A DNA stretch of 64,000 nucleotides from Parapedobacter luteus (GTDB lineage Bacteria; Bacteroidota; Bacteroidia; Sphingobacteriales; Sphingobacteriaceae). A model generated the notes under the pieces. The model was not told where the DNA came from. It did not search any database and worked only from the letters and a program-made list of their open reading frames with translations. Position 1 is the stretch's first letter; each line of letters opens with the position of its first letter. The DNA lies in contig NZ_FUYS01000007.1 of assembly GCF_900168055.1 (NCBI RefSeq), positions 62,001 to 126,000 on the forward strand, written 5' to 3'. The position numbers and the translations under genes are program-made. Positions 881 through 16,684 of the stretch are shown one piece after another.

Positions 881-2764
881 TTACTTTGCAGTTGTTTCGG
901 GCGATTTGCTGTTGATAATAACCGCGCGGACATAGTTGCTGTGTCTTCCTGAAGGCGCAACCACTATAGCTTTAAATACCCGCTCTTTGCCTTTGGGTAC
1001 AACCACTGTTACTCCGTCTCGGTATTCGAGGTCGGTATCTGTGGGGTTGAAGTTGTTAATGGTGTAATAGATCTTGCCCCCTAAAACCGAAGGTTGAAGC
1101 CCTTTGAATACATATTCGCTGGCATAAATGACGGTGTCTTTCAGCCCGATGACTTCCGGGACGCGATACACCGTTTCCGTTTGGTCTATTTTGGCGAGAT
1201 GTGCCGGCACGCGCACTTCCGAAAAATCTTTCCAGTTTTTGCGATCAGGGGTTGTCCATGCGATTTCCGAGAGGGCATATAGGCGCGGTAATAGCATGAA
1301 CTCCACTTTTCTGTCGGTTTCCATGTATTCGGTCCACATATTTGCTTGTACACCAAGGATGTGCTTTCGCTCAGCTTCCGAAAGTGCTTTGGGGGTTGGG
1401 TCCGCTGCGTACACTTTTTCCAATGGAGCGTAACCGCCGATATTCAACGGTTCACGGTGTGTGTCGGGCCCCTGTTTGTTATCGAAATAAAGCCCATAGG
1501 TATGAGCCGTCATAATGACGTCATGACCTTGCTTAGCGGCAGCCCTGGCGCCTTCGTCGCCTCGCCAACTCATCACCGTCGCGTTGGGCGCTAAGCCTCC
1601 TTCCAATATTTCATCCCAGCCAATGATACGGCGCCCCTTGGCGTTGATATATTTCTCCATCCGTTGGACGAAATAGCTCTGCAGCTCGTGTTCGTCTTTC
1701 AGCCCTTCATTTTTCATGCGCTTTTGGCAGTATGGGCAAGCCTGCCAGCGCGTCTTAGGGCACTCGTCTCCCCCGATGTGGATGTATTCACTGGGGAACA
1801 GTTCAATAACCTCATCAATGACGGCTTCCAAAAAGGCAAAAGTCTCTTCTTTGCCTGCACAGAATACATCATCGAATACGCCCCAAGTCTCAGCGGTTTT
1901 ATAAGGCCCCGGGTTATCACCACATCCCAAATACGGATAGGATGCCAGCGCAGCTAACGCGTGGCCGGGCATCTCAATTTCGGGGACAACATTTACATAG
2001 CGTTCCGCAGCGTAGGCAACCACTTCCCGGATCTCGTCCTGCGTATAGAATCCGCCGTAAGGTGTCGCATCATAGTCGCCCTGCTGTTTGTTGTTGCCGA
2101 TGAGTGTTTGCGCACGGTAGGCGCCTACCTCGGTCAGTTTAGGGTATTTTTTAATCTCGATGCGCCAGCCTTGGTCTTCAGTAAGGTGCCAATGGAAATT
2201 GTTAAGTTTATAGGCCGCAATAAAATCGATATATTTTTTAATGAATTCGATAGGAAACAGGTGTCTGCACACGTCGAGGTGCATGCCGCGGTAGCGATAA
2301 CGTGGTTCATCCCTGATGGTGACAGCAGGAATGGCCGGTTGGGCATCGTCCTCTTTTGGCAGCAATTGCGTCAATGTCTGCATCGCATAAAACAGCCCAG
2401 CGTTTTTACCTTGCAGGTGTACCCGGTCCGGCGCTACAACCAGTGTGTACGCCTCGTCATTCGGTAGCCCTTCGGTTCCTTTCGAGGAAAAATAGATAAC
2501 GGATTCCCCCACTGCCTCGCGTTTGACGGGAAGGGTGATCTGCAAGGCTTCCCGGACATAGTCACCGAAAAATTCAGCTACTTTTTTGTCAGATTCGCTG
2601 TCGTATCCGATGGTGGTCGACGCATTGATGACAAATCGGCCCGGTTGTACCGAGATTTCCGCGGGAGCCGGGATGATGGTAAGATTCGGTGCCTGTTGTT
2701 GAGAACGAGCAACGAGGGTGCACAAAGCGATAATGAAGATTGGCGATAGGTGTTTAGCAAGCAT
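881..2764 (-). CDS. Secreted beta-N-acetylhexosaminidase, glycoside hydrolase family 20
   Basis: A 627-residue exo-hydrolase removing terminal GlcNAc or GalNAc from glycans. It has a Sec signal peptide (about residues 1-22), a GH20b-type N-terminal domain (about 28-150), the catalytic TIM barrel (about 155-500) and a C-terminal beta-rich extension. The catalytic pair is Asp333-Glu334 in 'HIGGDECPK', and 'HWHLTEDQGWR' is the usual substrate-pocket strand. Its start is an ATG 162 bp from the divergent LacI gene. With no lipobox it is probably periplasmic or exported. It is the canonical GH20 of the locus; the second GH20 (11130) is a different subtype. Confidence 0.95.
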   Translation of the reverse strand: MLAKHLSPIFIIALCTLVARSQQQAPNLTIIPAPAEISVQPGRFVINASTTIGYDSESDKKVAEFFGDYVREALQITLPVKREAVGESVIYFSSKGTEGLPNDEAYTLVVAPDRVHLQGKNAGLFYAMQTLTQLLPKEDDAQPAIPAVTIRDEPRYRYRGMHLDVCRHLFPIEFIKKYIDFIAAYKLNNFHWHLTEDQGWRIEIKKYPKLTEVGAYRAQTLIGNNKQQGDYDATPYGGFYTQDEIREVVAYAAERYVNVVPEIEMPGHALAALASYPYLGCGDNPGPYKTAETWGVFDDVFCAGKEETFAFLEAVIDEVIELFPSEYIHIGGDECPKTRWQACPYCQKRMKNEGLKDEHELQSYFVQRMEKYINAKGRRIIGWDEILEGGLAPNATVMSWRGDEGARAAAKQGHDVIMTAHTYGLYFDNKQGPDTHREPLNIGGYAPLEKVYAADPTPKALSEAERKHILGVQANMWTEYMETDRKVEFMLLPRLYALSEIAWTTPDRKNWKDFSEVRVPAHLAKIDQTETVYRVPEVIGLKDTVIYASEYVFKGLQPSVLGGKIYYTINNFNPTDTDLEYRDGVTVVVPKGKERVFKAIVVAPSGRHSNYVRAVIINSKSPETTAK

Positions 2765-2925: not shown

Positions 2926-3999
2926 ATGAAGAAAGAACGCGCCGAAGGCCAACTATCGGGGGTTAAGGAGATTGCCCGGCGAGCTGGAGTGTCGATTGCC
3001 ACGGTAGATCGTGTGATCCACAACCGAAAAGGTGTATCGGAAGCCACCCGGCAGCGAATCAATGAGATTATTGAAGATATTGGCTTTCAGCCGAATATTT
3101 TAGCCAGTAGATTGGCTTCAAAGAAGACAAACCGATTTGCGGTCCTGATTCCCAACGCCAGCGAGACAGACTATTGGGAAGCACCCCGTAAGGGGGTTGA
3201 GCGAGCCTATCAGGAAATCAAGCAGTACGGTATTCAATTAGAACAGTTCCTTTTCGATTTAAATGACAAAACGACCTTCGCTAAGCACGCAACCACGATT
3301 TTGGATGGTGACTTTGATGGAGTGGTGCTGGCTCCGTCCTTTGTAAATGAGGCGAGAAAGTTTACGGCGGCCTGCGAATCCAGAAAGATTCCTTATGTAT
3401 TCGTTAACTCAGATGTGCCCGGTGCGGAGAGCTTGGCGTATGTTGGCCCTCATTTGTTCAAAAGCGGACGCTTGGCAGGGCAGTTGATCCGTTTCGGCGT
3501 CAAAAGTGGTAAGGTGCTGCTCGTGAATATTTCTAGGGAAATCGACGCTTATCACCATTTATTGAGAAAAGAAGAGGGATTCCGGTCATATATCAATAGA
3601 ACAAACAAAAAGAATAGCGTCATCCATATCGAAAAAATTGACATCACGGTCACAAATGATAAGGCTGTTGGCGAAGCAGTGGGAGCTGTATTGGAGGCGC
3701 ATGCCGACGTTGCCGCCATTTTTGTGACCAATTCACGCGTGCGTAGCGTTGCAAAGTACCTTCGCAAACGCCGGAAGAACAAGCTCACCCTTATTGGCTA
3801 TGACCTGATCGAGGAAAATATTGGTTACCTTACGGAAGGGACAATTGACTTTTTGATAGGGCAGAAACCAGAAGAGCAAGGATATTTAGGGCTTATGGTG
3901 TTGTTCCAGGCCGTTGTAATGGGTAAAAAGATTGACAAAGAACAATACATGCCGATAGACATTATTACTAGGGAAAACGTCGAATTTTACAAAAATTGA
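2926..3999 (+). CDS. LacI-family transcriptional regulator of the hexosamine locus
   Basis: A 357-residue DNA-binding regulator with an N-terminal LacI helix-turn-helix (about residues 12-60) and a periplasmic-binding-protein-like sugar-sensing domain (about 70-350). The HTH reads 'VKEIARRAGVSIATVDRVIHN': the recognition helix has Asp28 where most LacI proteins have Ser (TVSRVL). It lies between the divergent GH20 gene and the susC operon, in the same direction as susC but separated from it by 341 bp holding three palindromes. Inference: it controls the operon, with a hexosamine-derived sugar or sugar phosphate as effector. Confidence 0.9.
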   Translation: MKKERAEGQLSGVKEIARRAGVSIATVDRVIHNRKGVSEATRQRINEIIEDIGFQPNILASRLASKKTNRFAVLIPNASETDYWEAPRKGVERAYQEIKQYGIQLEQFLFDLNDKTTFAKHATTILDGDFDGVVLAPSFVNEARKFTAACESRKIPYVFVNSDVPGAESLAYVGPHLFKSGRLAGQLIRFGVKSGKVLLVNISREIDAYHHLLRKEEGFRSYINRTNKKNSVIHIEKIDITVTNDKAVGEAVGAVLEAHADVAAIFVTNSRVRSVAKYLRKRRKNKLTLIGYDLIEENIGYLTEGTIDFLIGQKPEEQGYLGLMVLFQAVVMGKKIDKEQYMPIDIITRENVEFYKN

Positions 4000-4340: not shown

Positions 4341-7300
4341 ATGATCAAGGGAAACAACAACCGTCTGCTGTTATTTTTTACCGGAAATAAAAAATTTGCA
4401 GCACTCATCATCGTTTTCATGGTCGGCTTGCTTACAGTGGATGATGTAGCTGGTCAGGAAAATACCGTTCGAGGCAGGGTGACAGACCTTGCGGACGGTC
4501 GCGCCATTGAAGGTGCGAATGTCGCTATCAAAGGGACTGCGGGGGGAGGCAGCACCGACGCTACCGGCTACTATATGTTGCAGGGCGTTTCAGCTGGTGA
4601 TGTGCTTGTTTTTAGTTCTGTGGGTTATGATACAAAGGAAGTCACCGTTGGATCGCAGACAACGATAGACGTTGCTTTGGCTGAATCTATCAACCTCTTG
4701 GAGGAAACAGTCGTAGTCGGCTACGGTCGTCAGAAAAAACGCAATCTAACTGGGTCAGTCGTGTCCGTCGGCAGCGAGGAGATCGCCAAAACTGCACTGC
4801 AAGATCCGATTTCTGTACTTCAAGGACGTGCTGCGGGCGTTCAGGTAACGTCCAATTCGGGTGCCCCCGGAGGCGAAATGACGATCCGGGTCCGCGGTAA
4901 TTCGTCGTTGAATTCGGGTAATAATCCGTTATTCGTGGTTGATGGAATCCCCATCGAATCCGGTTCGTTATCTTCCTTAAACGGTACAGAAAACTTCGGT
5001 TTGAATCCGCTGGCAGACATCAATCCCGGAGACATTGAGTCTATCGAAATCCTAAAAGATGCGGCTTCTACCGCCATTTATGGTTCGCGGGCGGCGAATG
5101 GCGTGGTCATGATCACGACGAAACGCGGCGCCGAGGGCAAAGCACAGGTGAATCTGACCGTGAATAGCGGTATCAGCGAGTTGACACGCAAGTTGAGCGT
5201 GTTGAATGCAAGCCAATACAGAGACGCTGTGATGGAGTCCTATATGAATATGGATAACCCTGAACAGCCGTACTGGACCGTGGTGGACTCGCTTAATCCG
5301 ATGAATAACGGTGATGTAGATTGGCAAGACGAACTGATGCGAGCTGCTGGGCAATATCAGGTCAACCTGGCTATCCGGGGTGGTACCAAAAACACCCAGT
5401 ATGCCTGGAGTTCCTCGTATCTCGACCAAGATGGTATTATCATCAACTCGAACTACAAGCGTATCACATCGCGGTTGAATGTAGATTTTAATGTTACGGA
5501 TAAATTAAAAATAGGGCAAAGCATTTCTTACACAAATGGCCTGAACAATCGGATTAACGCAGGTGGCACTGGAAATCTAAGCGTCATACGCGAGTTGTTG
5601 GTGCGGCCGCCTATCATGTCTATGTACCTTCCCGATGGCTCATTGAACGGCTATTCTTTGGGAAGGCGTAACCCTGTCGGTATCGCGTTACATGCCACAC
5701 ATTTGAATAAGAGCAATCGGATCGTCGGTAGCCAGTATCTGGAATATCAGATTATTGAAGGGTTGAAGTTCAGGAGCAACCTGAATTTCGATTTCACCGC
5801 TATGAAAGAAGATGAATTCATGCCCTCGATCCTGGATTACCGCGAAGGGTATAATACCGGTGCTGTACGTAGCATCAATAACCTGACTTGGGGAAATGAG
5901 AATTTTTTCCAGTACGACCGCACATTTGGTGATGGGCATCATGTGGGAGGTGTTGCTGGGTTCAGCTTCCAAAATTGGCGATACGAACGGACAGGATTGA
6001 ATGGATCATTTTTCCCAAGCGATGACATCCGTACGCTGAATGCTGCAAGCGTAATTTCCAACAAAGATGCAAACGGGATGGATATAAACGTGGCTTCGGA
6101 GCACGCGATGCTGTCTTATTTCGGAAGGGTGATGTACGACTACCAAGGTAAGTACCTCGCCGAGATAAATCTCCGGGCAGACGGCTCATCACGTTTCGGA
6201 CGTGATAAGCGGTTTGGTTATTTCCCATCAGCGTCAGTAGGCTGGCGCTTCTCCGAAGAAGGACTCTTCAATGATCTGAGCTTCCTGAACGACGCGAAGC
6301 TCCGGTTTAGTATTGGGTCGACGGGCAATGAAGCTATCGGCGATTACACGTCACAAGGGGAGTTTCTGGTTGGGACAAACTATTTGGACTATTCCGGCGC
6401 TGCGCCGACTGTGATGCCCAATGCTGCATTGACATGGGAAACGACCACGCAGTATAACGCTGGGTTGGACATCGCCTTATGGGCCAATCGCCTAATCTTG
6501 AATGTCGACGCATACCTTAAGGATACCCGTGACTTACTGTACAGCGTGCCGATACCCAGGGAAACCGGATTTGCATCCATCACCCAAAACATCGGTAGTA
6601 TCCGAAACAGGGGCATTGAATTTTTGGTGACAAGCCGGAACCTCGTTGGCGAATTCCAGTGGAGCACCAATTTTAATATCAGCGCAAATCGTAATAAGGT
6701 GATATCGCTGCCTGAAAATGTGCTCACCAATGGCTTTATCCAGAACGGGGCTTACCACATCCTGAAAGAAGGATTACCCATCGGGATTTTTTACGGGTGG
6801 AGGTTCGATGGTGTATATGCCCGGGACGAAGACAATGTCAATGGAGTCACTCACGGTGCACAAGGTCCTGTGTTCGCAGGAGGTGATCCCATCTGGCACG
6901 ATCTGAACGGCGATCATATTATTGATCAGAACGATCGCCAAATCATCGGAAATGCCGAGCCTAATTTCTTTGGCGGGATATCCAATGATTTTTCTTATAA
7001 GAACTTTTCGCTGAATATATTCTTCCAGTTTTCACAAGGCAATGATATATACAGTGAGATCAATCATCAGCGCAATGCGATTGTCCGCTACAACAACCTT
7101 TCTACAGATGCGTTGCGGCGGTGGAGGCAGCAAGGCGACATTACCGACTTCCCGAAACTCATACGTGACGACCCAAAACAGTCTGACAGTAGGGTTCAAA
7201 GCAGGTGGGTTGAGGACGGTTCGTACATCAAGTTGAAGAATGTCAACCTCCGGTACCGTTTTGCGCCGAGCCTGATTGACCGGATTGGCCTGAGGCAATT

Positions 7301-7457
7301 GGAGGCATTCGTGACGGCAACCAACCTGATCACTTGGACCAAGTACACGGGCTTCGACCCGGATGTAAATTCATATGCCGGATTGCGCGTGGGCGTGGAT
7401 GAAGGATCGTACCCGCAAAACCGGTCGTTTATTTTCGGAATCAATATTGGGCTTTAA
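4341..7457 (+). CDS. SusC/RagA-type TonB-dependent outer-membrane transporter
   Basis: A 1038-residue outer-membrane importer of oligosaccharides, energised by TonB. Residues about 1-38 form a long signal peptide, 42-113 a carboxypeptidase-D-like domain ('VRGRVTDLADGRAIEGANV'), and 'EETVVVGYG' (121-129) is the TonB-box region. The plug follows ('LQGRAAGVQVTSNSGAPGG', 'NPLFVVDGIP'), then a beta-barrel ending in 'FGINIGL'. It heads the operon and is followed 11 bp later by its SusD partner. Substrate specificity cannot be read from sequence; the neighbours point to N-acetylhexosamine glycans. Confidence 0.95.
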   Translation: MIKGNNNRLLLFFTGNKKFAALIIVFMVGLLTVDDVAGQENTVRGRVTDLADGRAIEGANVAIKGTAGGGSTDATGYYMLQGVSAGDVLVFSSVGYDTKEVTVGSQTTIDVALAESINLLEETVVVGYGRQKKRNLTGSVVSVGSEEIAKTALQDPISVLQGRAAGVQVTSNSGAPGGEMTIRVRGNSSLNSGNNPLFVVDGIPIESGSLSSLNGTENFGLNPLADINPGDIESIEILKDAASTAIYGSRAANGVVMITTKRGAEGKAQVNLTVNSGISELTRKLSVLNASQYRDAVMESYMNMDNPEQPYWTVVDSLNPMNNGDVDWQDELMRAAGQYQVNLAIRGGTKNTQYAWSSSYLDQDGIIINSNYKRITSRLNVDFNVTDKLKIGQSISYTNGLNNRINAGGTGNLSVIRELLVRPPIMSMYLPDGSLNGYSLGRRNPVGIALHATHLNKSNRIVGSQYLEYQIIEGLKFRSNLNFDFTAMKEDEFMPSILDYREGYNTGAVRSINNLTWGNENFFQYDRTFGDGHHVGGVAGFSFQNWRYERTGLNGSFFPSDDIRTLNAASVISNKDANGMDINVASEHAMLSYFGRVMYDYQGKYLAEINLRADGSSRFGRDKRFGYFPSASVGWRFSEEGLFNDLSFLNDAKLRFSIGSTGNEAIGDYTSQGEFLVGTNYLDYSGAAPTVMPNAALTWETTTQYNAGLDIALWANRLILNVDAYLKDTRDLLYSVPIPRETGFASITQNIGSIRNRGIEFLVTSRNLVGEFQWSTNFNISANRNKVISLPENVLTNGFIQNGAYHILKEGLPIGIFYGWRFDGVYARDEDNVNGVTHGAQGPVFAGGDPIWHDLNGDHIIDQNDRQIIGNAEPNFFGGISNDFSYKNFSLNIFFQFSQGNDIYSEINHQRNAIVRYNNLSTDALRRWRQQGDITDFPKLIRDDPKQSDSRVQSRWVEDGSYIKLKNVNLRYRFAPSLIDRIGLRQLEAFVTATNLITWTKYTGFDPDVNSYAGLRVGVDEGSYPQNRSFIFGINIGL

Positions 7458-7468
7458 ATCACACACCG

Positions 7469-8842
7469 ATGAAGACAATTATAAAGAAAATTGGGGCATT
7501 GACCGTCGTGGCGGTGATGGCCTCTTGTGCGGATACCCTGTTGGACAAGGAGCCGATCAGTAACTTTTCTGCGCAGGGTTTTTATAAAAATACCAGCGAC
7601 GCGCAGGCGGGCGTTTATGGCATCTATAATGCATTCCAGTCGGCCTTTCGTTTGAATTTCGCCCTGTGGGGTGAAGGCCGCGCTGATGCTGTGGGTTCGA
7701 ACGCTGTAGGGGATCCGGCCGCACTCCGGCAGAACACGTTGACTCCGATCATTAATTCTGCCAGATGGGACAACCTTTACACGGTAATCAGTAGGGCCAA
7801 TTATGCGATTAAGTATATTCCGCAGGTATTTGGTGGGGCGGATAGTCCGTTGCGAAACCAGTTATTGGGACAGGCATATGCCCTTCGCGCCATCGCCTAC
7901 TTCTATGCGGTGAGGGTTTGGGGCGATGTGCCGTTGATTCTTGAACCTTATGAAAGTATCGACCAGGAGCTATTTGTCCGCAAGACCGATCGCGAAGCTG
8001 TGTTGGACCAGATCGAGGAAGATTTGACGTTTGCTTCGGTTAATTGTGCTGCAAGCTACGGAGGCGAACGCGACAGGGTGCTGATCACGCGCGGCGGAGC
8101 AGATGCCTTTTTGACCCATGTATACATGTGGCGAAAAGACTATGCAAATGCCATCGCTGCCGCCGAGCGCGTTATGGATAATCCGCTATATTCGCTCGTG
8201 ACCATGGGCGATTGGACGAATGTTTTTGCCATAGGCCTTTCTTCAGAGAGTATTTTTGAGGTAGGCTACAATGAAGTCCAAACCAATTCGCTGCGGATTT
8301 TGTACGCTCTGGGTTCAGATAGTTATTATTTCCCCAGTGAGCGGTTTATGAATTCATTTGAGGAGGGTGACCTTCGAAGGCCCCGTATCTACGACATTAC
8401 GGCCGTACAGCCGCGTATGGTTTGGAAGTTTTTTGGCGAAGGATTCAATGATGAAAGTCCTGATCCTTCTGCGAATAATATTGTGCTGGTACGGTTGGCA
8501 GACATCATGCTGCTAAAAGCAGAGGCTCACGCGCGATCTGGCCAGCCGGAAGAAGCGCTGCCCCTCCTGAACGAAATCAGGGAGCGTGCGGGTTTGGCAT
8601 CACTCGACCAAGCTACGGCGGAATCGTTGTATGGCGATATCGAGTCAGCTATTCTGCATGAACGATCGATTGAGCTGTCGTTTGAAGGGCATCGGTGGTT
8701 CGATTTGGTACGCACTGGCCGGGCGATTGAAATTATGCAGCCCATCAACGGGCTGCGTGATGAGGCCAATATCCTGTGGCCAATACACGAGGAAGCCATC
8801 AACCGTAATCCCAATCTGGAACAAAATGAATTTTATAGATAA
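7469..8842 (+). CDS. SusD/RagB-family surface glycan-binding lipoprotein
   Basis: A 457-residue lipoprotein that caps the SusC barrel and binds the glycan at the cell surface. The lipobox is 'VMASC' with the lipidated Cys near residue 20. 'QAYALRAIAYFYAVRVWGDVPL' and the C-terminal 'SFEGHRWFDLVRTGRA' are standard SusD signatures around its TPR-like helices. It overlaps nothing and sits 11 bp downstream of susC and 23 bp upstream of the FAS1 lipoprotein start. Confidence 0.95.
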   Translation: MKTIIKKIGALTVVAVMASCADTLLDKEPISNFSAQGFYKNTSDAQAGVYGIYNAFQSAFRLNFALWGEGRADAVGSNAVGDPAALRQNTLTPIINSARWDNLYTVISRANYAIKYIPQVFGGADSPLRNQLLGQAYALRAIAYFYAVRVWGDVPLILEPYESIDQELFVRKTDREAVLDQIEEDLTFASVNCAASYGGERDRVLITRGGADAFLTHVYMWRKDYANAIAAAERVMDNPLYSLVTMGDWTNVFAIGLSSESIFEVGYNEVQTNSLRILYALGSDSYYFPSERFMNSFEEGDLRRPRIYDITAVQPRMVWKFFGEGFNDESPDPSANNIVLVRLADIMLLKAEAHARSGQPEEALPLLNEIRERAGLASLDQATAESLYGDIESAILHERSIELSFEGHRWFDLVRTGRAIEIMQPINGLRDEANILWPIHEEAINRNPNLEQNEFYR

Positions 8843-8865
8843 CCTCATTTTTGAGCTTTAAACGT

Positions 8866-10329
8866 ATGATGATGCAAAATAATAAATTCATTAGGCAATT
8901 TTTGGTTGTTTGCATTGCCTTATTGGCATTGGCAAGTGGCTGTGAAGTCCAGGAGGACTTCACATATAAGCCCTCCGGGGTCGATGGAAAATTGGGTGTA
9001 ACTGCATGGGAATTTATTCAGACCAGCAGTGATTTCGAACAGTTAAGGACTGCAATTATACGTACAGGACTTCAAAACCTGTATCAAGATGAGGAAAGGA
9101 CCTTTATTGTGCCCAACAACAACGCCTTCAGCACATACTTGCAAAATAGCGGTTACGGCTCTATTGACGATATACCCTTACCCATATTGCGCAATATGCT
9201 GCGGTACCACGTCGTCAGGGAACGCATTATCTTTACTGATCCGGACATCGTCCGTGATCGTCCCCTTCCCTATGAGACCGAAAATGGACAGCTAATGTAC
9301 CTCTCACGCAATAACAATTATGTAGGCTTGATTAATCAAGGGACCTCAAGGCAATGGGAGATCCGTACATCCAACTTGGAGCCAACCAATGGGGTGATGC
9401 ATGCTGTCGATTTCATCGTCTATTTCTCCGCTCCAGCGATTGATAACAGTACGGAGACCACCTTGGATCGGGATACGATCTATCCGTTGCATGATTCGTT
9501 TGTAGCTGGTGATAGCCCTGGTGAATTATATGGGAATACGAACTATGGGGCGAATCCACTTCTTAGGCCGAAATATGCTAGTCCAACAGGCAATTCGGCC
9601 TACGACAGGGTTGCATATCTAATGTTTGACCTTGAGGATTTTGAAAAACCGGGTATCGTCGTGGATATGCAACTCAGACTGGCGGTCAGTTTCACCACCG
9701 GAGATGGCTATACATTGGATCTTTACAAAGCAGCAAACAACAATTGGACGGAATCAACTATCACATTCAACAATGCTCCCGGTCGCGCTGGAGATCGTAT
9801 TTCATACGTTACTACGTCTAAAGTGGATGCCTTCAATTTTGATATTACAGATTTCTACAAAAATGAGTCACCGAGTGGAAGGGTTTCCTTTACGGTGGAG
9901 AGTGGTGCCGCTCCTGCTGGCAACAAAACTGATGATTTGGCCTCAAAAGAACATGCCACGCTGGCGCCACCCATGATCATCGCAACATTGGCAACAAATC
10001 AAAATGAGTTGGTTGTAGAGACAAATGAACAGGCCACGGTTTCGAACGGTGGCTCGGTAGTCATCAATACGGACCTCTTGGAGATAGCCGGTGCCGATGC
10101 TGGCGATATCATCTATACTGTGGAAACTGCACCCTTAAAAGGTTGGCTCATAAGAGGCGCCGATATTATTGGGCAGGGTGGAGAGTTTACGCAGGCGGAT
10201 CTCCAGTCATTGAGCCTGCTTTATATTCACGATGGTGAGAGCAGCGGAGAGGATACCATGGTCTTATCTGCGAGGGATAGGACAGGTGCAGAGATAGAAG
10301 ATATCCGGGTATCCATTAATATACAATAA
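8866..10329 (+). CDS. FAS1-DNRLRE-cadherin-like surface lipoprotein (SusE/F position)
   Basis: A 487-residue lipoprotein. Residues 1-25 are a signal peptide with lipobox 'LASGC' (Cys26). About 45-187 is a fasciclin (FAS1) domain ('ERTFIVPNNNAFSTYL', 'MLRYHVV', 'GVMHAVDFIV'). About 205-375 resembles DNRLRE/CBM96-type modules ('YDRVAYLMFDLEDF', 'NWTESTITFNNAPG'). About 385-487 resembles cadherin-like/CSPG repeats ('APLKGWLI', 'FTQADL', 'LLYIHDGESSGED'). The first in-frame codon is a TTG at 8851; the ATG at 8866 (with others at 8869 and 8872) suits the signal peptide better. Its place after susCD suggests a surface glycan-binding role. No catalytic motif is evident. Confidence 0.8.
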   Translation: MMMQNNKFIRQFLVVCIALLALASGCEVQEDFTYKPSGVDGKLGVTAWEFIQTSSDFEQLRTAIIRTGLQNLYQDEERTFIVPNNNAFSTYLQNSGYGSIDDIPLPILRNMLRYHVVRERIIFTDPDIVRDRPLPYETENGQLMYLSRNNNYVGLINQGTSRQWEIRTSNLEPTNGVMHAVDFIVYFSAPAIDNSTETTLDRDTIYPLHDSFVAGDSPGELYGNTNYGANPLLRPKYASPTGNSAYDRVAYLMFDLEDFEKPGIVVDMQLRLAVSFTTGDGYTLDLYKAANNNWTESTITFNNAPGRAGDRISYVTTSKVDAFNFDITDFYKNESPSGRVSFTVESGAAPAGNKTDDLASKEHATLAPPMIIATLATNQNELVVETNEQATVSNGGSVVINTDLLEIAGADAGDIIYTVETAPLKGWLIRGADIIGQGGEFTQADLQSLSLLYIHDGESSGEDTMVLSARDRTGAEIEDIRVSINIQ

Positions 10330-10338
10330 CTCGACTGT

Positions 10339-11091
10339 ATGGGACCATTTTTTAAAGTATTTAAAACGTTAAGTATTGTCATGGTCGTTTTGTGTTCATG
10401 CGGCGACAAGGCGCTACCAGAAGATGCTCCTACGTACACCACCCGTATCGTTCAGTTTTCTGGATTCGATTGGGTCGTACGCACATCGGGCCAAAACCAA
10501 GAAGGCCCCGGGCCAAATTATTTTTCGGATTCGGAAGAAAACGTATGGGTGGACAATGACGGTCGCTTGCACCTGAAAATCATCCAAAAGGGTGGCAACT
10601 GGTATTGTTCAGGCGTCTCATTGCGCCGTTCCCTGAGCTACGGTAAGTATGTTTTCTATGTGTCGAGCCGGGTCGATGAACTGGATCAGAACGTAGTGGC
10701 AGGATTGTTTACGTATATGAACGATGAAGAGGAAATTGATATTGAGTTTTCCCGTTGGTCAGCGCCAGATAACGAAGACGCCCAGTTTGCCGTGCAGCCC
10801 TCGCATCTGCCCGGCAATAAAGTGCGGTTTGATCTGAATCTAACCGGATCCTATTCAACACATGCTTTTGATTGGCAGCCTGATCGGATCGATTTTGTCA
10901 GCTTACGCGGACATGGTTTAACACCAACAACAGACAACTTGATTCACCAGTGGACGTACACGGGCGCAAATATTCCGCCTGACAGTGAAGAACGATTGAA
11001 GATCAATTTGTGGCTATTCAGGGGGCAATCGCCAGCTGATTTGAACGAGCAGGAGCTGATCATTGAACGCGTCGACTTTATAGCGAATTGA
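10339..11091 (+). CDS. Lipoprotein with glycoside hydrolase family 16-like fold
   Basis: A 250-residue protein with signal peptide and lipobox 'LCSC' (Cys21), followed by a concanavalin-like GH16 domain. The GH16 catalytic motif ExDxE is intact as Glu132-Ile-Asp134-Ile-Glu136 in 'EEEIDIEFSRW'. 'GRLHLKI' and 'YGKYVFYVSS' are typical strands. GH16 enzymes are endo-beta-glucanases or endo-beta-galactanases; this short subtype has no substrate I can name. In an operon with two hexosaminidases, an endo-cleaving role on a surface-bound aminosugar glycan is plausible inference. It starts 9 bp after the preceding stop. Confidence 0.75.
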   Translation: MGPFFKVFKTLSIVMVVLCSCGDKALPEDAPTYTTRIVQFSGFDWVVRTSGQNQEGPGPNYFSDSEENVWVDNDGRLHLKIIQKGGNWYCSGVSLRRSLSYGKYVFYVSSRVDELDQNVVAGLFTYMNDEEEIDIEFSRWSAPDNEDAQFAVQPSHLPGNKVRFDLNLTGSYSTHAFDWQPDRIDFVSLRGHGLTPTTDNLIHQWTYTGANIPPDSEERLKINLWLFRGQSPADLNEQELIIERVDFIAN

Positions 11092-11129: not shown

Positions 11130-12692
11130 ATGTGTAATTTTCACCTGATTAAATTTTTGTTGGTATTTCTGGTACTCACCGGTGCGTCGTCCAGTCAGGC
11201 CACTCCGAAAGAAGTTTCGGATGATTTCGAGATTAAGGGCTTTCACCTCGATTTGCGCATTCAGGTCATGACGCCCCAAGCGCTCAAATCTTTTGCAAAA
11301 GAACTTGCTGATTTCGGCATCAACACCTTGGTAATGGAATGGGAGGGAACCTATCCCTTTAAAAAGCACGCGATAATCGCCAACCAGTATGCGTATAGCC
11401 GCGAGGAGGTAAACGACTTTATCGCTTACTGCGATTCATTGGGAATCAGTGTTATCCCGCTCCAACAAACGCTTGGGCATGTTGAATATATTCTGCGTCA
11501 TCCACGGTATAGCCTGCTGAAAGAAGACCGTAAAGATATCTCTCAGCTCTGTCCCATGGAGACAGATGCCAGCAAAGCGCTTTTCAAAGAATTGTTCGCC
11601 GATCTGGCTGACACCCATCATTCAGATTATATCCATATCGGAGGGGACGAAACCTACCTGTTGGGGCATTGTGAAAAATGCGCCCGAAAGGTTGCTGAAG
11701 CAGGCAAATCCAAACTTTTTGTCGATCACATGAAAATGATAGCACAATTGGTGGTTGATTTGGGAAAGACACCTATCATGTGGGCAGATATCATATTGAA
11801 GTACCCCGAAGCGGTGGCAGAGTTACCTGATGAAGTCATATTTGTCGATTGGAATTATGGGTGGAAAACTAACCATTTTGGCGACGTTGCAGCACTTCAA
11901 CAACAAGGGTTCACGTTTTGGGGAGCTCCATCCATCCGCTGCCATCCGGATAACTGGTACGTCACCGATTGGATGACTCACTTCAATAATCAACGTGATT
12001 TTATTCCGTATTCGCGAGAGGCGGGTTATCGCGGAATGGTCATGACCTCGTGGTCTACAACCGGCGTCTATGGTTTCATATGGGATGTAGGATATGATGT
12101 GATCGACATGATACAGGTACGGAATACCTATCCTTTGGCCGGATTCCGGATCTTGATTGCCAGTTATGCTCAAGCATTGGCATCTTCTGAACCGCTGGAC
12201 GCGCAGGCATTTGTATACACGTATGGCAAAGACCGTTTTGGACTGACGGCAACGGAGGCCGACGCGCTTTGGTCATTTTTCGCGGCACCGCCCGTGCTGA
12301 TCACGGATGGCAAACCTGCCGATGGCAGCACCATTGAAATGCTTATTCAAAATTATACAAAGGTACAGCAAGGGGTAAATACCTGTAGCCCCAAGCGAAA
12401 CCAGCGAGAGTTTGAACACTTCAAGCTGATGGTCGATCTGCGCATGCATTACCTGGCTTATAAAGCTATTGAAGCAAAATACAATGCAGCGGATTTCGAT
12501 CCGGCGCAAACCCCGGAATTGCTTACGGCAATTCATGCTATATTAGCTGATGCCGATGTACTTAACCAGCGGTTCGAAGGGTTGATGTCGGGTTTTCTTT
12601 ATCCAGCTGAGATCGCCGAACAAAATCGGTGGCGGGTTGAGCAGGTTCACGTGCTTTATCACCGATTGGCCAAGTTAAAAGATGCCGAATAA
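11130..12692 (+). CDS. Secreted GH20 hexosaminidase, hexosaminidase-D-like subtype
   Basis: A 520-residue protein with an N-terminal signal peptide (about 1-24) that begins its TIM barrel almost at once ('GFHLDLRIQVMTP'), with no GH20b domain. The catalytic pair is Asp173-Glu174 in 'HIGGDETYLLG'. 'INTLVMEWEGTYPF', 'YAYSREEV' and 'VIPLQQTLGHVEYILRH' run parallel to animal hexosaminidase D (from memory), an enzyme reported to favour galactosaminides. A helical region of about 170 residues closes the protein. It may supply GalNAc-directed activity next to the canonical GH20 at 881. Confidence 0.85.
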   Translation: MCNFHLIKFLLVFLVLTGASSSQATPKEVSDDFEIKGFHLDLRIQVMTPQALKSFAKELADFGINTLVMEWEGTYPFKKHAIIANQYAYSREEVNDFIAYCDSLGISVIPLQQTLGHVEYILRHPRYSLLKEDRKDISQLCPMETDASKALFKELFADLADTHHSDYIHIGGDETYLLGHCEKCARKVAEAGKSKLFVDHMKMIAQLVVDLGKTPIMWADIILKYPEAVAELPDEVIFVDWNYGWKTNHFGDVAALQQQGFTFWGAPSIRCHPDNWYVTDWMTHFNNQRDFIPYSREAGYRGMVMTSWSTTGVYGFIWDVGYDVIDMIQVRNTYPLAGFRILIASYAQALASSEPLDAQAFVYTYGKDRFGLTATEADALWSFFAAPPVLITDGKPADGSTIEMLIQNYTKVQQGVNTCSPKRNQREFEHFKLMVDLRMHYLAYKAIEAKYNAADFDPAQTPELLTAIHAILADADVLNQRFEGLMSGFLYPAEIAEQNRWRVEQVHVLYHRLAKLKDAE

Positions 12693-12710
12693 TAACAAGT
12701 GTGTATCGGC

Positions 12711-13352
12711 ATGAAAAGATTGATTGTTCCGTTTATTCCGGTAGCCGGCGTGCCATCACCACGGGAGGTCATGCCGTTGCTGGAGACCGTGCAAAAAACG
12801 CCCATTGATGTAAATCCTTGGCCGCAATTTGTCCACGACGTGGAAGCAAATGTCACAATAGCTCACAATGGCAATGCGATTTTTTTGAAGTATGACATTG
12901 TGGAAGCGCACGTGACGGCAAGAGCCACTACAAATGGAGCTGTTCATCAAGACAGTTGTGTCGAATTCTTCGTTTCGTTTGACGGTATCCTGTATTACAA
13001 CTTGGAATTCAATTGCTTGGGTTGGTGCAAAGCCGCTTATGGCGTGATGGGGCCCGCAAGGAAGTTACTACCTGAGCACACTGTCAATTTAATCGCCTCG
13101 GCGACAACGATGGATGTGGCGAGTGTTGGCAACAAGAAGCGGTTTGCGTGGCAGATTGTGTTGGCCATTCCTGCAGCATTGTTCTGTTATCACAATATAT
13201 CATCATTTAAGCGAGTAAAAGCGATAGGGAATTTTTATAAATGCGGTGACGGATTACCGACAGTACATTACCTGTCATGGAATCCGATTCGGTTTGAAAC
13301 ACCCAATTTTCACCGGATAGAAGATTTTGGACAAATTGAATTTGGGGCTTGA
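12711..13352 (+). CDS. Carbohydrate-binding family 9-like protein
   Basis: A 213-residue single-domain protein of the CBM9/DOMON-like beta-sandwich type. Landmarks are 'IDVNPWPQF', 'AIFLKYDIVEAHVTA', 'HQDSCVEFFVSFD' and 'YYNLEFNCLGWCKAAYG'. No enzyme motif is visible. A GTG at 12699 is in frame, but the ATG at 12711 matches the usual family start. There is no clear signal peptide, so it may act in the cytoplasm, which is odd for a glycan-binding module. It ends 11 bp before the sugar permease gene. Confidence 0.75.
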   Translation: MKRLIVPFIPVAGVPSPREVMPLLETVQKTPIDVNPWPQFVHDVEANVTIAHNGNAIFLKYDIVEAHVTARATTNGAVHQDSCVEFFVSFDGILYYNLEFNCLGWCKAAYGVMGPARKLLPEHTVNLIASATTMDVASVGNKKRFAWQIVLAIPAALFCYHNISSFKRVKAIGNFYKCGDGLPTVHYLSWNPIRFETPNFHRIEDFGQIEFGA

Positions 13353-13363
13353 ATGGTCGTGTT

Positions 13364-14704
13364 ATGAAAAAAGAGGAGTCAGTAAACGTCAATACCTTAT
13401 CACGCCAAGAAACGGTTGTGTCGATTACGATCATCGCCGGAATGTTTTTCATCTTCGGCTTTCTTTCTTGGATCAATGCAATCCTTATCCCGTATTTTAA
13501 GATCGCTTGCGAGCTTACGCATTTCCAATCGTACTTAGTGGCCTTCGCATTTTACATTGCCTATTTCGTTATGGCGGTACCCTCGTCGTACCTGCTTAAA
13601 AAGTTGGGGTTCAAACGGGGGATGATGGTTGGTTTTTTTGCGCTGAGCTTGGGGGCATTTATTTTCGTACCGGCGGCGATGATGCGGACATATGGTCTAT
13701 TCCTTCTGGGCTTGTTCACCATTGGTATTGGACTTGCTATTTTACAGACGGCTGCCAATCCCTATGTGACCATCCTTGGTCCCAAGGAACGTGCGGCCCA
13801 GCGCATCAGTATCATGGGAATCTGCAATAAGGTTGCAGGCATCTTAGCACCCCTATTTTTTGCGGCGGCAGTTCTTCGGCCTACCGATCAAGCGTTGTTT
13901 GATAGTCTGGCATTCATGCATGAAGAAGCGCGTGGAGCAGCGCTTGACGAGCTGATCCGCCGGGTAGTCGTACCCTATTCGGTAGTGGGTACCTTGCTGC
14001 TGGTTATCGGCATAGGTGTTCGCTACTCCCCGCTGCCGGAAATTGATGCCGAGGAAGAGCATGGGGAAGTGGCCGTGGCAAACAGCAGCAAAAACAGCGT
14101 GCTACAATTTCCGCACTTGGTGCTGGGCGCTTTGGCCATTTTCATCCACGTGGGCGCTCAGGTGATTTCTATCGATACCATCATCAACTACGCGGGGTCG
14201 ATGGGGATATCGCTCATGGAAGCGAAGGCCTTTCCGTCTTATACACTCGGCATGGCTATCGTAGGGTATTTTTTGGGTGTCTTAGTCATTCCGCGTTGGA
14301 TTAGCCAGACGAATATGTTACGACTGGTGACGGGCCTCGGTGCCGTGTTGTCATTGTTGGTCGTGTTCGTCAAGGGAGATGTCACCTTATTCGGTTATCA
14401 TACCGATATATCCATTTGGTTTGTGGTGCTGCTTGGCATTCCCAACTCGCTGACGTGGGCCGGGATATGGCCGTTGGCACTAGATGGTTTGGGTAGGTTC
14501 ACCAAGGTGGGCGCATCGCTGCTAATCATGGGCCTGTGCGGCAATGCTGTCTTGCCAATGGTATATGGGTATTTTGCGGATAGTGCCGGTTTACGTGAAG
14601 CGTACGGGGTGTTGCTGCCATGTTATCTGTACTTGATCTATTATGCCATATGGGGGCATAAACTAAGGAGTTGGCGTAAATTAGAGCGTAGAAAAACCTT
14701 TTAG
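13364..14704 (+). CDS. Sugar:H+ symporter, FucP/NagP-like MFS permease
   Basis: An inner-membrane transporter of about 446 residues with roughly 12 hydrophobic segments, of the fucose/glucose/N-acetylglucosamine permease group. Diagnostic stretches are 'GMFFIFGFLSWINAILIPYF' in TM1, 'LGLFTIGIGLAILQTAANPYV' in TM4 and 'SLTWAGIWPLALDGLG' late in the protein. The ATG at 13364 is preferred over an in-frame TTG at 13349. Immediately followed by nagA (ATG abuts its stop), it most likely imports free GlcNAc, which then needs a kinase not encoded here. Confidence 0.85.
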   Translation: MKKEESVNVNTLSRQETVVSITIIAGMFFIFGFLSWINAILIPYFKIACELTHFQSYLVAFAFYIAYFVMAVPSSYLLKKLGFKRGMMVGFFALSLGAFIFVPAAMMRTYGLFLLGLFTIGIGLAILQTAANPYVTILGPKERAAQRISIMGICNKVAGILAPLFFAAAVLRPTDQALFDSLAFMHEEARGAALDELIRRVVVPYSVVGTLLLVIGIGVRYSPLPEIDAEEEHGEVAVANSSKNSVLQFPHLVLGALAIFIHVGAQVISIDTIINYAGSMGISLMEAKAFPSYTLGMAIVGYFLGVLVIPRWISQTNMLRLVTGLGAVLSLLVVFVKGDVTLFGYHTDISIWFVVLLGIPNSLTWAGIWPLALDGLGRFTKVGASLLIMGLCGNAVLPMVYGYFADSAGLREAYGVLLPCYLYLIYYAIWGHKLRSWRKLERRKTF

Positions 14705-15922
14705 ATGGGCAAAGCATATAAAAAAATTATAAATGGCCGGATTATTACCCCGAACCGTGTGATAGTGGATGGGCAGCTGCTGTTGAGCGAGGGAAAGATT
14801 GTGGAGGTGTCCGATGGCAATATCGACGCGCCAAACTCGGAGATAATTGATGCGAAGGGGAGTTATGTCGCACCGGGATTCATCGACATGCATGTACATG
14901 GCGGTGGTGGTGCCGATTTCATGGATGGCTCCATAGATGCCTTTCTGACGGCGGCCAAAACACATGTACGCTATGGCACTACGGCGCTCCTGCCCACCAT
15001 CCTGACCAGTACGAAAGAACAAATCATCCAATCGCTGGCTTTGTATGAGCAAGCCGCAGCCCGCGCTATCCAGGGCTCGCGATTTTTGGGTGTGCATATC
15101 GAAGGGCCATATTTTGCCATGAAACAGCGTGGTGCGCAGGACCCACGCTATATCCGCGACCCCGACCCAGCTGAGTACATGGAAATCTTGGCGAGTTCGT
15201 CGTCCATTAAGCGCTGGAGCATCGCACCCGAACGCGCGGGGGCAATAGCATTTGGCCGCATGCTACGAGAGCGGAATATCCTACCGTCCATCGCGCATAC
15301 CGATGCTTTGTATGCGGATGTCTTGAAAGCCTTTGATAATGGCTATACGCTGGTGACTCACTTGTATTCCGCCATGTCTGGTGTTACCCGGCGAAACGCC
15401 TATCGCTATGGCGGGGTGATTGAAAGTGCCTACCTCTTGGACGATATGGATGTGGAGATCATCGCAGACGGAAAACACCTGCCCCCGGAATTGCTTCAGT
15501 TGGTTTATAAGATAAAAGGAGCGGATCGCACGGCTTTGATTACGGATGCAATGCGTGCCGCCGCAATGCCGGAGGGCCCCAGCGTGCTGGGTAATATCGC
15601 GGACGGTATGGCCGTGCTCGTGGAAGACGGCGTGGCCAAATTGCCGGATCGTACCGCGTTTGCCGGTAGTATCGCGACCGCAGACCGCTTAGTACGGACC
15701 ATGGTTGCCGGCGCGGGTATTCCATTGGTTGAAGCGGTGCGGATGATCACAGCCACACCGGCCCGGATACTCGGCGTCGATCACCACGTAGGCGTATTGG
15801 CCAACGGAAAAGACGCTGATGTGGTCTTGTTTAATGACGATATCGAAATCCGATTGACCTTGGTCAACGGCGATATCGTCTATAAGCACGAGACGTATTA
15901 TGGTAGGAATTATTTCTGTTGA
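14705..15922 (+). CDS. nagA: N-acetylglucosamine-6-phosphate deacetylase
   Basis: A 405-residue cytoplasmic amidohydrolase converting GlcNAc-6-P to glucosamine-6-P plus acetate. The metal motif 'GFIDMHVHGGGG', the Glu in 'GVHIEGPYF', histidines in 'SIAHTDA' and 'THLYSAMSG', and the catalytic Asp in 'LITDAMRA' are all present. 'THLYSAM' replaces the more usual THLFNAM, and the insertion 'ECPYFAMKQRGAQD'-type loop is the family's normal 'GPYF...GAQDP' element. Its ATG directly follows the permease stop, and nagB starts 3 bp after its own stop, implying translational coupling. Confidence 0.95.
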   Translation: MGKAYKKIINGRIITPNRVIVDGQLLLSEGKIVEVSDGNIDAPNSEIIDAKGSYVAPGFIDMHVHGGGGADFMDGSIDAFLTAAKTHVRYGTTALLPTILTSTKEQIIQSLALYEQAAARAIQGSRFLGVHIEGPYFAMKQRGAQDPRYIRDPDPAEYMEILASSSSIKRWSIAPERAGAIAFGRMLRERNILPSIAHTDALYADVLKAFDNGYTLVTHLYSAMSGVTRRNAYRYGGVIESAYLLDDMDVEIIADGKHLPPELLQLVYKIKGADRTALITDAMRAAAMPEGPSVLGNIADGMAVLVEDGVAKLPDRTAFAGSIATADRLVRTMVAGAGIPLVEAVRMITATPARILGVDHHVGVLANGKDADVVLFNDDIEIRLTLVNGDIVYKHETYYGRNYFC

Positions 15923-15925
15923 ACG

Positions 15926-16684
15926 ATGAATAATAGAATCGACGAATTGTCGGTTGTTCGCAGCAACGACCGACAGGAGATGGGCAAGGTTGCAGCCAAC
16001 GCCGTTGCGGAAACCGTCAAGCGGTTACAAGCGAATCAGGATACTGTGAACATTGTCTTCGCAGCGGCGCCCTCCCAAAATGAATTTCTGGAAAACTTGG
16101 TAGACAGCAGCGGTATTAACTGGAATCGTGTGAACGCGTTTCATATGGATGAGTATCTCGGTCTCCCTGCAAATGCCCCACAGCGGTTTGGCTTTTTCTT
16201 GGAACAACGGTTGTTTGCTAAATTGCCTTTCCGAGCGGTCAATTACCTGAATGGAGATACCATTGATCCGCTGGCCGAATGCCAACGGTACGCCGATTTG
16301 CTGACTCAGTATCCCATTGATATCGTCTGTATGGGCATTGGAGAAAACTGCCACATCGCTTTCAACGACCCACATGTGGCCGATTTTGAAGACCCAATGC
16401 GTGTCAAGGTGGTTGATTTGGACCTGGCTTGCCGTAACCAACAAGTTCACGACGGCTGTTTTTCGGATATCGAAGATGTACCCACTCATGCCTTGACCTT
16501 AACAGTGCCGGCGTTAATGGCGGCCGCCAATATCTTTTGTATCGTGCCCGGACCTACCAAAGCCCAAGCCGTTTATCATACCCTTACCGCAGAAGTCGCA
16601 TCCGCTTATCCTTCGACAGCGTTGCGAAGACATCCAAATGCCATACTGTTCCTTGATGGGGATAGTGCCGCACTTGTTGCCTGA
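15926..16684 (+). CDS. nagB: Glucosamine-6-phosphate deaminase-like enzyme (NagB family)
   Basis: A 252-residue protein expected to turn glucosamine-6-P into fructose-6-P and ammonia. 'FHMDEYLGL' holds the Asp75 general base. The ring-opening loop reads 'GIGENCHIAFNDP': His143 is kept, but the positions equivalent to E. coli Asp141 and Glu148 are Asn141 and Asp148, and Cys142 replaces Gly. As I recall, a GENGH version is common in one NagB-like clade, so Asn and Asp are clade features while Cys is unusual. It is the last gene of the operon and is followed by a hairpin terminator. Confidence 0.8.
   Translation: MNNRIDELSVVRSNDRQEMGKVAANAVAETVKRLQANQDTVNIVFAAAPSQNEFLENLVDSSGINWNRVNAFHMDEYLGLPANAPQRFGFFLEQRLFAKLPFRAVNYLNGDTIDPLAECQRYADLLTQYPIDIVCMGIGENCHIAFNDPHVADFEDPMRVKVVDLDLACRNQQVHDGCFSDIEDVPTHALTLTVPALMAAANIFCIVPGPTKAQAVYHTLTAEVASAYPSTALRRHPNAILFLDGDSAALVA

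Follow-up and report, generated by a model that had tools for sequence, protein, structure and literature searches.

The window analysed here is a 64,000-nucleotide stretch of Parapedobacter luteus DNA (NCBI RefSeq assembly GCF_900168055.1, contig NZ_FUYS01000007.1, positions 62,001 to 126,000 of the forward strand), and our subject is the gene at positions 8866–10329 of its plus strand. The gene encodes a presumed lipoprotein of three modules, FAS1 (fasciclin), CBM96/DNRLRE (CBM, carbohydrate-binding module) and Cadherin_3, which we label FDC. The gene order at the locus is LacI regulator, SusC, SusD, FDC, a glycoside hydrolase family 16 (GH16)-like gene (GH16L), a GH20-like gene (GH20L), CBM9_2, a major facilitator superfamily (MFS) transporter, and NagA-like and NagB-like genes, with a second GH20-like gene (GH20a) transcribed divergently (Table 1). 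The FDC gene begins 23 bp behind susD, that is, in the SusE position right after susCD, as had been claimed in the original prediction, a note made from the letters of this DNA. The gaps between SusC and SusD (11 bp), FDC and GH16L (9 bp), and GH16L and GH20L (38 bp), taken with this one, suggest that the genes from SusC to GH20L form one operon.

Modules of the FDC protein

The FDC reading frame was intact and specified a product of 487 aa; a TTG at 8851 is a possible alternative start, and, judged from the orthologues, the third Met (8872) may be the true one. Pfam recognised Fasciclin at residues 56–182 (3.3e-10, 40.7 bits vs a cut-off of 22), CBM96 at residues 204–373 (4.2e-19, 69.4 bits vs 26) and Cadherin_3 at residues 384–477 (1.2e-12, 48.1 bits vs 25.5), and NCBIfam gave a DNRLRE_dom match at 2e-16. 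All three modules were found in 43/43 members of alignment A3, which holds the window protein and 42 related ones (Pfam, E <= 0.01). Chance or artefact as the source of the modules is ruled out, because all of them exceed the Pfam cut-offs and are kept in every member. No BACON, DUF1735 or SusE-type match was obtained for FDC with Pfam at E <= 0.1. A classical SusE/SusF identity, with an Ig-like N-terminal domain and starch-binding domains, is likewise ruled out, since Fasciclin, CBM96 and Cadherin_3 are the only families given by Pfam for the window protein (E <= 0.1) and for the 43 members (E <= 0.01).

The AlphaFold2 model of FDC, built on an alignment of 43 sequences, had a mean pLDDT (per-residue confidence) of 83 but a pTM (global confidence) of 0.53, so the folds of the modules can be trusted and their mutual placement cannot. 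The model was compared with the PDB by VIA, to which the following scores belong, and also by Foldseek. Residues 35–190 resembled the FAS1 domains of TGFBIp and periostin (Z about 19–20). For residues 196–376 the best match was 8wab (Z 23.3, root mean square deviation (rmsd) 2.2, 169 aligned, 27% identity); residues 204–374 matched the alginate-binding CBM96 7vbo (Z 20.2, rmsd 2.1, 160 aligned, 24% identity), and the CBM96 region also matched 9n2d_C, which is BamH (Z 10.8). Residues 379–487 resembled the CSPG4 fragment 7n8x_B (Z 11.1, rmsd 2.5, 102 aligned). Each of the three segments that the original prediction had named was recovered in this way, by Pfam and by fold matches in the PDB alike.

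FDC is presumably a lipoprotein, as a hydrophobic stretch precedes a Cys that is invariant in 43/43 aligned proteins of A3 and in 18/18 of alignment A1, which was not chosen by the tail motif; a surface location is presumed as well. The two alignments were also used for counting invariant columns. In A1, whose 18 rows came from a whole-protein search, these numbered 6/19 in the tail (residues 26–44), 40/146 in FAS1, 31/170 in CBM96 and 17/104 in Cadherin_3; in A3, whose 43 rows were gathered by tail and FAS1 patterns that favour those two segments, the corresponding counts were 5/19, 27/146, 10/170 and 12/104. Conservation is thus strongest in the tail, which has the highest share of invariant columns in both alignments, and in FAS1.

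Table 1. Features of the FDC locus, in positions of the window
Feature	Position	Strand	Basis
Second GH20-like hexosaminidase (GH20a), divergently transcribed	881..2764	-	Weak NCBIfam GlcNAcase match, 28.7 bits vs cut-off 1000; HIGGDE motif in the open reading frame (ORF)
LacI-type regulator	2926..3999	+	Pfam LacI 3.6e-17, Peripla_BP_4 4e-38
SusC, TonB-dependent outer-membrane transporter	4341..7457	+	TIGR04056 1.1e-268; nearest solved by sequence 8aa4_A, SusC homolog
SusD lipoprotein	7469..8842	+	Pfam SusD_RagB 1.7e-29
FDC, putative lipoprotein signal peptide, residues 1–25	8866..8940	+	Hydrophobic stretch ahead of the invariant Cys
FDC, Cys26 (presumed lipidated) and conserved tail, residues 26–44, C-E-[IV]-Q-[EDS]-x-F-x-Y	8941..8997	+	Conservation
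FDC, FAS1 (fasciclin) module, residues 45–190, proposed SusCD-docking	8998..9435	+	Pfam PF02469
FDC, CBM96/DNRLRE beta-sandwich, residues 204–373, proposed glycan-capture	9475..9984	+	Pfam PF24517
FDC, Cadherin_3/CSPG-like module, residues 384–477	10015..10296	+	Pfam PF16184
GH16-like lipoprotein (GH16L), E132-I-D134-I-E136, proposed surface endo-hydrolase	10339..11091	+	Pfam GH16 21.4 bits
GH20-like beta-N-acetylhexosaminidase (GH20L)	11130..12692	+	Pfam GH20 5.1e-15; nearest solved 8qk1, beta-N-acetylhexosaminidase, 2.2e-25
CBM9_2-family protein	12699..13352	+	Pfam 2.2e-49; relative at 2/42 related loci only
MFS transporter, presumed inner-membrane sugar transporter	13349..14704	+	Pfam MFS_1 7.9e-16; substrate presumed from context
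Amidohydrolase, NagA-like	14705..15922	+	Pfam Amidohydro_1 1.6e-26; NagA name from context
Glucosamine-6-phosphate isomerase/deaminase family, NagB-like	15926..16684	+	Pfam Glucosamine_iso 6.4e-18

Conservation of the locus in Bacteroidota

In the family set of 251 genomes, taken from a larger group, 113 had some FDC match at E <= 0.001, and at least 18, own genome included, held a full-length orthologue (>= 45% identity) among the matches listed. Named genomes were searched with two patterns lying in the tail and FAS1, so relatives without those segments were missed; 51 of the 65 pattern-fitting stretches encoded an FDC relative, of which 42 were full-length and nine contained FAS1 only. The hosts were Sphingobacteriaceae, Flavobacteriaceae (Zobellia, Leeuwenhoekiella, Gramella and others), one Membranihabitans (Saprospiraceae) and one Cytophaga. 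One Bacteroidota locus, L090, stood on a contig filed under a Thalassovita metagenome-assembled genome (Pseudomonadota) and grouped with Salegentibacter on the SusC tree, for which mis-binning is the likely explanation.

The genes around FDC were conserved to different degrees. SusC and SusD (>= 60% identity to those of the window) were present at 42/42 full-length loci, and GH16L (>= 45%) at 41/42, with the ExDxE motif intact in 41/41. Of the 42 loci, 36 had a GH20L relative (30%), 29 one of GH20a (25%), 32 one of NagB (40%) and 15 one of the MFS transporter (40%); 39 carried one or more relatives of GH20, of NagB or, at closer range (50%), of NagA, and H-x-G-G-[DE]-E was kept in all 61 GH20s of more than 400 aa at related loci. 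By script, SusD, FDC and GH16L were consecutive in 40/42. The two misses were L061, where the gene caller had dropped the ORF though the search reports FDC over residues 3–487, and L079 of Leeuwenhoekiella aequorea, which has a full-length FDC in a genome without GH16L; there the next gene is symporter-like and a phosphodiesterase-family gene lies further on.

Some loci differed in other details. Upstream of SusC, L051–L056 carried two genes (182–186 and about 400–418 aa) where many loci have LacI; at L051 these are an extracytoplasmic function (ECF) sigma factor and a FecR-type anti-sigma protein, and regulation thus appears to differ between L051–L056 and the LacI-bearing loci. At L052 (Sphingobacterium chuzhouense), and also at L033, the GH20-like gene was split into two overlapping ORFs and is possibly broken or affected by a sequencing error. 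A heparinase II/III-like gene was present at L069.

The product of GH16L falls just below the Pfam GH16 cut-off (21.4 vs 22 bits), and 11/28 GH16L members matched at E <= 0.01. Its model (pLDDT 90) nevertheless had a GH16 fold (Foldseek, 1u0a, E 2.6e-9); bacterial lichenases came closest, and mucin O-glycanases and Crh5 ranked lower. GH16L matches were detected in 45/251 family genomes (E <= 1e-5), 22 of them weaker than 50% identity. At >= 50% identity, GH16L occurred in 18/18 family genomes with a full-length FDC orthologue and in 0/3 family genomes with the FAS1-only form.

The architecture extends beyond these relatives. Among the matches listed there were 20 full-length distant hits (24–29% identity), and SusD lay directly upstream in 20/20; all three modules were found in 9/9 of the distant homologues scanned. 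The cargo near them varied by locus (GH88-like, GH2, SASA esterase, beta-helix, GH20), which indicates that the same architecture serves several loci. A unique chimera is therefore ruled out, since 42 or more other loci, as well as distant homologues, share the architecture. When the first 20 hits that matched FDC only in its N-terminal FAS1 part were taken by E-value, SusD was directly upstream in 16, the exceptions being L157, L158, L163 and L167. At L154–L156, L159–L162, L165, L166, L168, L169, L171 and L172, FAS1 proteins (frames of 554–634 aa) had a SusC–SusD pair on one side and a further SusC on the other, an arrangement resembling tandem arrays. Apart from FDC, a single FAS1 match was found in the own genome, L102 (G000:C12:76960-77328), in a 700-aa open frame with SusD-like pieces adjoining.

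FDC is a candidate surface glycan-binding protein (SGBP) with an unusual and conserved module set, and its architecture is recurrent rather than singular. The original prediction had suggested a different kind of surface protein here; the unusual module set stands, while any singularity does not. As for an earlier assignment, none of the papers listed from the open-access literature was found to treat a fasciclin protein as a SusE-type component.

The FAS1-only Sphingobacterium clade

Nine Sphingobacterium loci (L093–L101) encoded a SusC (70%) and a SusD (63–65%) like those of the window and, next in line, a lipoprotein of about 190 residues with nothing beyond FAS1. No remnants of CBM96-Cadherin_3 or of GH16L were found in these loci by tblastn (best E 0.69), NagA and NagB relatives were absent from all nine, and a GH20a relative lay on the opposite strand in three. 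A whole-genome search (E <= 1e-5) detected GH16L in 0/10 genomes, namely the nine FAS1-only ones and that of L079; the same query recovers 18/18 orthologue-bearing family genomes.

Trees were built for SusC and for SusD (72 rows, with the distant homologues as root; quick searches, LG+G4), and in both the nine loci formed one clade within the full-length group, with SH-aLRT values of 100 and 99, respectively. The SusC tree required one change of domain state, and forcing the full-length rows into one clade was rejected (approximately unbiased (AU) test, p 0.0006). As the clade is nested and the scanned distant homologues hold three modules, an ancestor appears to have lost CBM96, Cadherin_3 and GH16L while FAS1 stayed with SusCD. 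A single loss of this kind would be the simplest reading; the nine species count as one event, not nine, and the trees do not order the loss of the modules against that of the enzyme. Because FAS1 is the only module that stays with SusC–SusD where CBM96, Cadherin_3 and GH16L are missing, it is better seen as a SusCD-associated core than as a capture module.

Comparing pairwise distances of SusC with those of each module over 41 loci (window and L079 left out) gave values of 0.88 for FAS1, 0.89 for Cadherin_3 and 0.75 for CBM96. CBM96 is the freest part of FDC. As FAS1 and Cadherin_3 were not separated, co-divergence was set aside as a docking test and is not counted as support.

Proposed role of FDC and related systems

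We propose, with a probability of about 0.58, that FDC is the SGBP in the SusE slot of a four-part outer-membrane machine made up of SusC, SusD, GH16L and FDC. In the sections consulted of the levan utilisome report (PMC7618045), a glycoside hydrolase and an SGBP are placed with SusC and SusD on the lip of SusC; SusC, the hydrolase and the N-terminal domain of the SGBP form a rigid unit, and the C-terminal domain of the SGBP binds levan. Parts of these four kinds are also present at the FDC locus, and we propose docking by the tail and FAS1, capture by CBM96-Cadherin_3 and cutting by GH16L. A passage on Flavobacterium johnsoniae describes a SusE with no structural kinship to SusD, purified together with SusC and SusD (PMC12611786). 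By analogy, the lipidated tail and FAS1 of FDC would sit on the SusCD complex, as the levan SGBP does with its N-terminal Ig-like domain, and CBM96 and Cadherin_3 would point outward, grip a glycan chain and pass it to GH16L and the SusD lid. GH16L, presumably a lipoprotein endo-enzyme, would cut the polymer at the surface, and the oligosaccharides would enter through the SusC barrel, with SusD as its lid. Periplasmic GH20 enzymes could then free amino sugars, and the transporter and the NagA- and NagB-like enzymes could complete the breakdown.

The original prediction had described FDC as a glycan-capturing surface protein. Such a function is plausible, given that chondroitin sulfate (8wab) and alginate (7vbo) are the described ligands of solved relatives of the CBM96 module; for the FAS1 module, docking is likelier than capture. 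The GH20, NagA- and NagB-like genes would point to beta-linked amino sugars, and the substrate may be a beta-glycan containing N-acetylhexosamine (HexNAc).

Several observations weigh against this proposal. GH16L relatives (>= 50%) also occurred in five family genomes without a full-length orthologue (G171, G168, G162, G189 and G121), so the pairing of FDC with GH16L is one-way. No GH20, NagA- or NagB-like gene was present within the examined stretch at L054, L070 and L079, and since L079 has no GH16L either, substrate and partner may vary. In a phylum sample of 31 FAS1 loci, SusC or SusD lay within about 1.5 kb at 5; the 31 were the best-scoring matches, which favours stand-alone FAS1 proteins, and they include two from the own genome and some in the same gene. 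FAS1 as such is therefore no marker of SusCD. Nor does co-divergence single out FAS1, because Cadherin_3 tracks SusC equally. Both trees carried a long-branch warning at the outgroup join. As regards CBM96, the pages of the founder study (Dp0100; PMC9971899) name K10, K22, K25, K27, K31, R36 and Y159 as alginate-binding residues, which were mapped onto FDC by alignment, the chain numbering being taken as shifted by 16 against that of the paper, to judge from the residue pattern. K25, K27 and R36 corresponded to R234 (K/R in 42/43), K236 (43/43) and R248 (43/43), and K10, K22, K31 and Y159 had no counterpart, so that only three of the seven have a basic one. In nine distant proteins (alignment A2), position 234 was never K/R, 236 was K in 8/9 and 248 was K/R in 9/9; K236 and R248 may thus be structural, as they are mostly basic in the distant homologues too. 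With four of the seven residues lacking a counterpart, alginate is not predicted as the ligand. The mismatch speaks against alginate and not against glycan binding, the residues marking the ligand of the founder rather than the family.

GH16L relatives were also seen in other settings. At L174, L175, L176 and L177 (G168, G162, G053 and G189), a relative (47–51%) stood directly behind a protein of 1136–1140 aa, which at L174 was scanned as a GT2/sulfatase-superfamily fusion, with a hybrid histidine kinase upstream. The L174-type setting looks like exopolysaccharide synthesis and hints at a bacterial exopolysaccharide as substrate, a lead only. At L173 (G171) and L178 (G121), the relative occurred without SusCD in the examined stretch, behind a gene with, by our own reading, a resistance-nodulation-division (RND)-transporter-like start and behind a Na+/H+ antiporter-family gene, respectively.

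An unlikely, though serious, alternative is that FDC serves the structure or assembly of the SusCD complex; CBM96 and Cadherin_3 would then act as protein contacts or spacers that hold GH16L in position, and would bind no glycan. It draws on BamH of the F. johnsoniae BAM complex, where, in the portion of PMC12611786 consulted, the docking end close to BamG has the fold of a chondroitin-sulfate-binding CBM; this protein-docking role of the same fold counts against a capture function in FDC, as does the small number of basic counterparts. The joint absence of CBM96-Cadherin_3 and GH16L from the nine species would also fit modules that position the enzyme, whereas L079 keeps both modules in a genome without it. 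Going by their titles, moreover, the two solved structures closest to the module are glycan-binding CBMs, and they match far better than BamH (Z 23.3 and 20.2 vs 10.8), and CBM96 diverges most independently of SusC, as fits a ligand-facing part.

It is improbable that FAS1 itself binds glycan or matrix and that FDC is an adhesin anchoring the cell to its substrate, the SusCD position being incidental: FAS1 proteins are reviewed as mediating interactions between cell surface and exterior in the text seen of PMC6032426, and a symbiont study interpreted the strong transcription of a FAS1 gene as pointing to adhesion (PMC10199937, in part), but SusC and SusD accompany every full-length locus, SusD directly precedes all 20 distant ones, and in the FAS1-only clade it is FAS1 alone that is retained with SusCD. 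Just as improbable, in our view, is an unusual SusE in an otherwise classical locus for chitin utilisation. GH20, NagA- and NagB-like genes lie nearby, and the F. johnsoniae chitin locus also has GH20 and NagB (PMC5127042, in the part consulted), but the conserved lipoprotein enzyme is GH16-like, the own genome gave no GH18 hit at E <= 0.001 (the search was for GH18, not for GH19 or other chitinase families), nine of the 18 orthologue-bearing genomes, own included, had none at that threshold, and none of the 16 GH18 hits in the other nine lay near the locus. A GH18-based use of chitin is accordingly judged unlikely.

Returning to FDC as an SGBP, a broader version, which we offer only tentatively, would make FAS1 a further class of SusCD-docking platform beside Ig-like, BACON and DUF1735 spacers, on which varied capture arms are mounted. 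Here, CBM96-Cadherin_3 and GH16L might harvest a HexNAc-containing bacterial exopolysaccharide, and the nine Sphingobacterium might have dropped the arm and the enzyme while keeping the FAS1–SusCD core for another nutrient. Proteins of the SusE slot vary widely, with Ig-like spacers in the well-studied ones, and FDC is a conserved FAS1-based version in Bacteroidota. The 42 full-length and nine FAS1-only loci behind related SusCD pairs form a natural set for asking which part docks and which captures, and the locus points to an uncharacterised GH16-like enzyme linked to amino-sugar use.

Among known systems, the levan and dextran utilisomes of Bacteroides thetaiotaomicron resemble this locus in having four outer-membrane genes, for SusC, SusD, an endo-type glycoside hydrolase lipoprotein (here the presumed one, GH16L) and a multi-domain lipoprotein (here the presumed one, FDC). 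In the utilisomes the last of these docks with its N-terminal part and binds glycan with its C-terminal part, as is proposed for FDC, so far as described in the consulted part of PMC7618045, in which the code of the nearest solved SusC, 8aa4, also occurs. Unlike the utilisomes, FDC has FAS1, CBM96 and Cadherin_3, and the machine is proposed here from gene order. With SusE/SusF, DUF1735 and BACON proteins, FDC shares the SusE slot and an N-terminal module common to varying C-termini, but their N-terminal spacers are Ig-like (PMC11216935, sections seen), whereas FAS1 is an unrelated fold. The CBM96 module agrees in fold and Pfam family with the CBM96 founder, the alginate-binding module of Dp0100; the founder module, however, belongs to a lyase according to the pages consulted, and FDC is a putative lipoprotein of the SusE slot. 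The closest solved relative of the module is, by entry title, the chondroitin-sulfate-binding CBM of a chondroitinase (8wab), whereas no chondroitinase was recognised among the scanned neighbours of FDC. Finally, the F. johnsoniae chitin locus ChiUL resembles this one in having GH20 and NagB near SusCD, and differs in that the excerpt of PMC5127042 reports GH18 chitinases there, while here a GH16-like enzyme is found with no GH18 hit.

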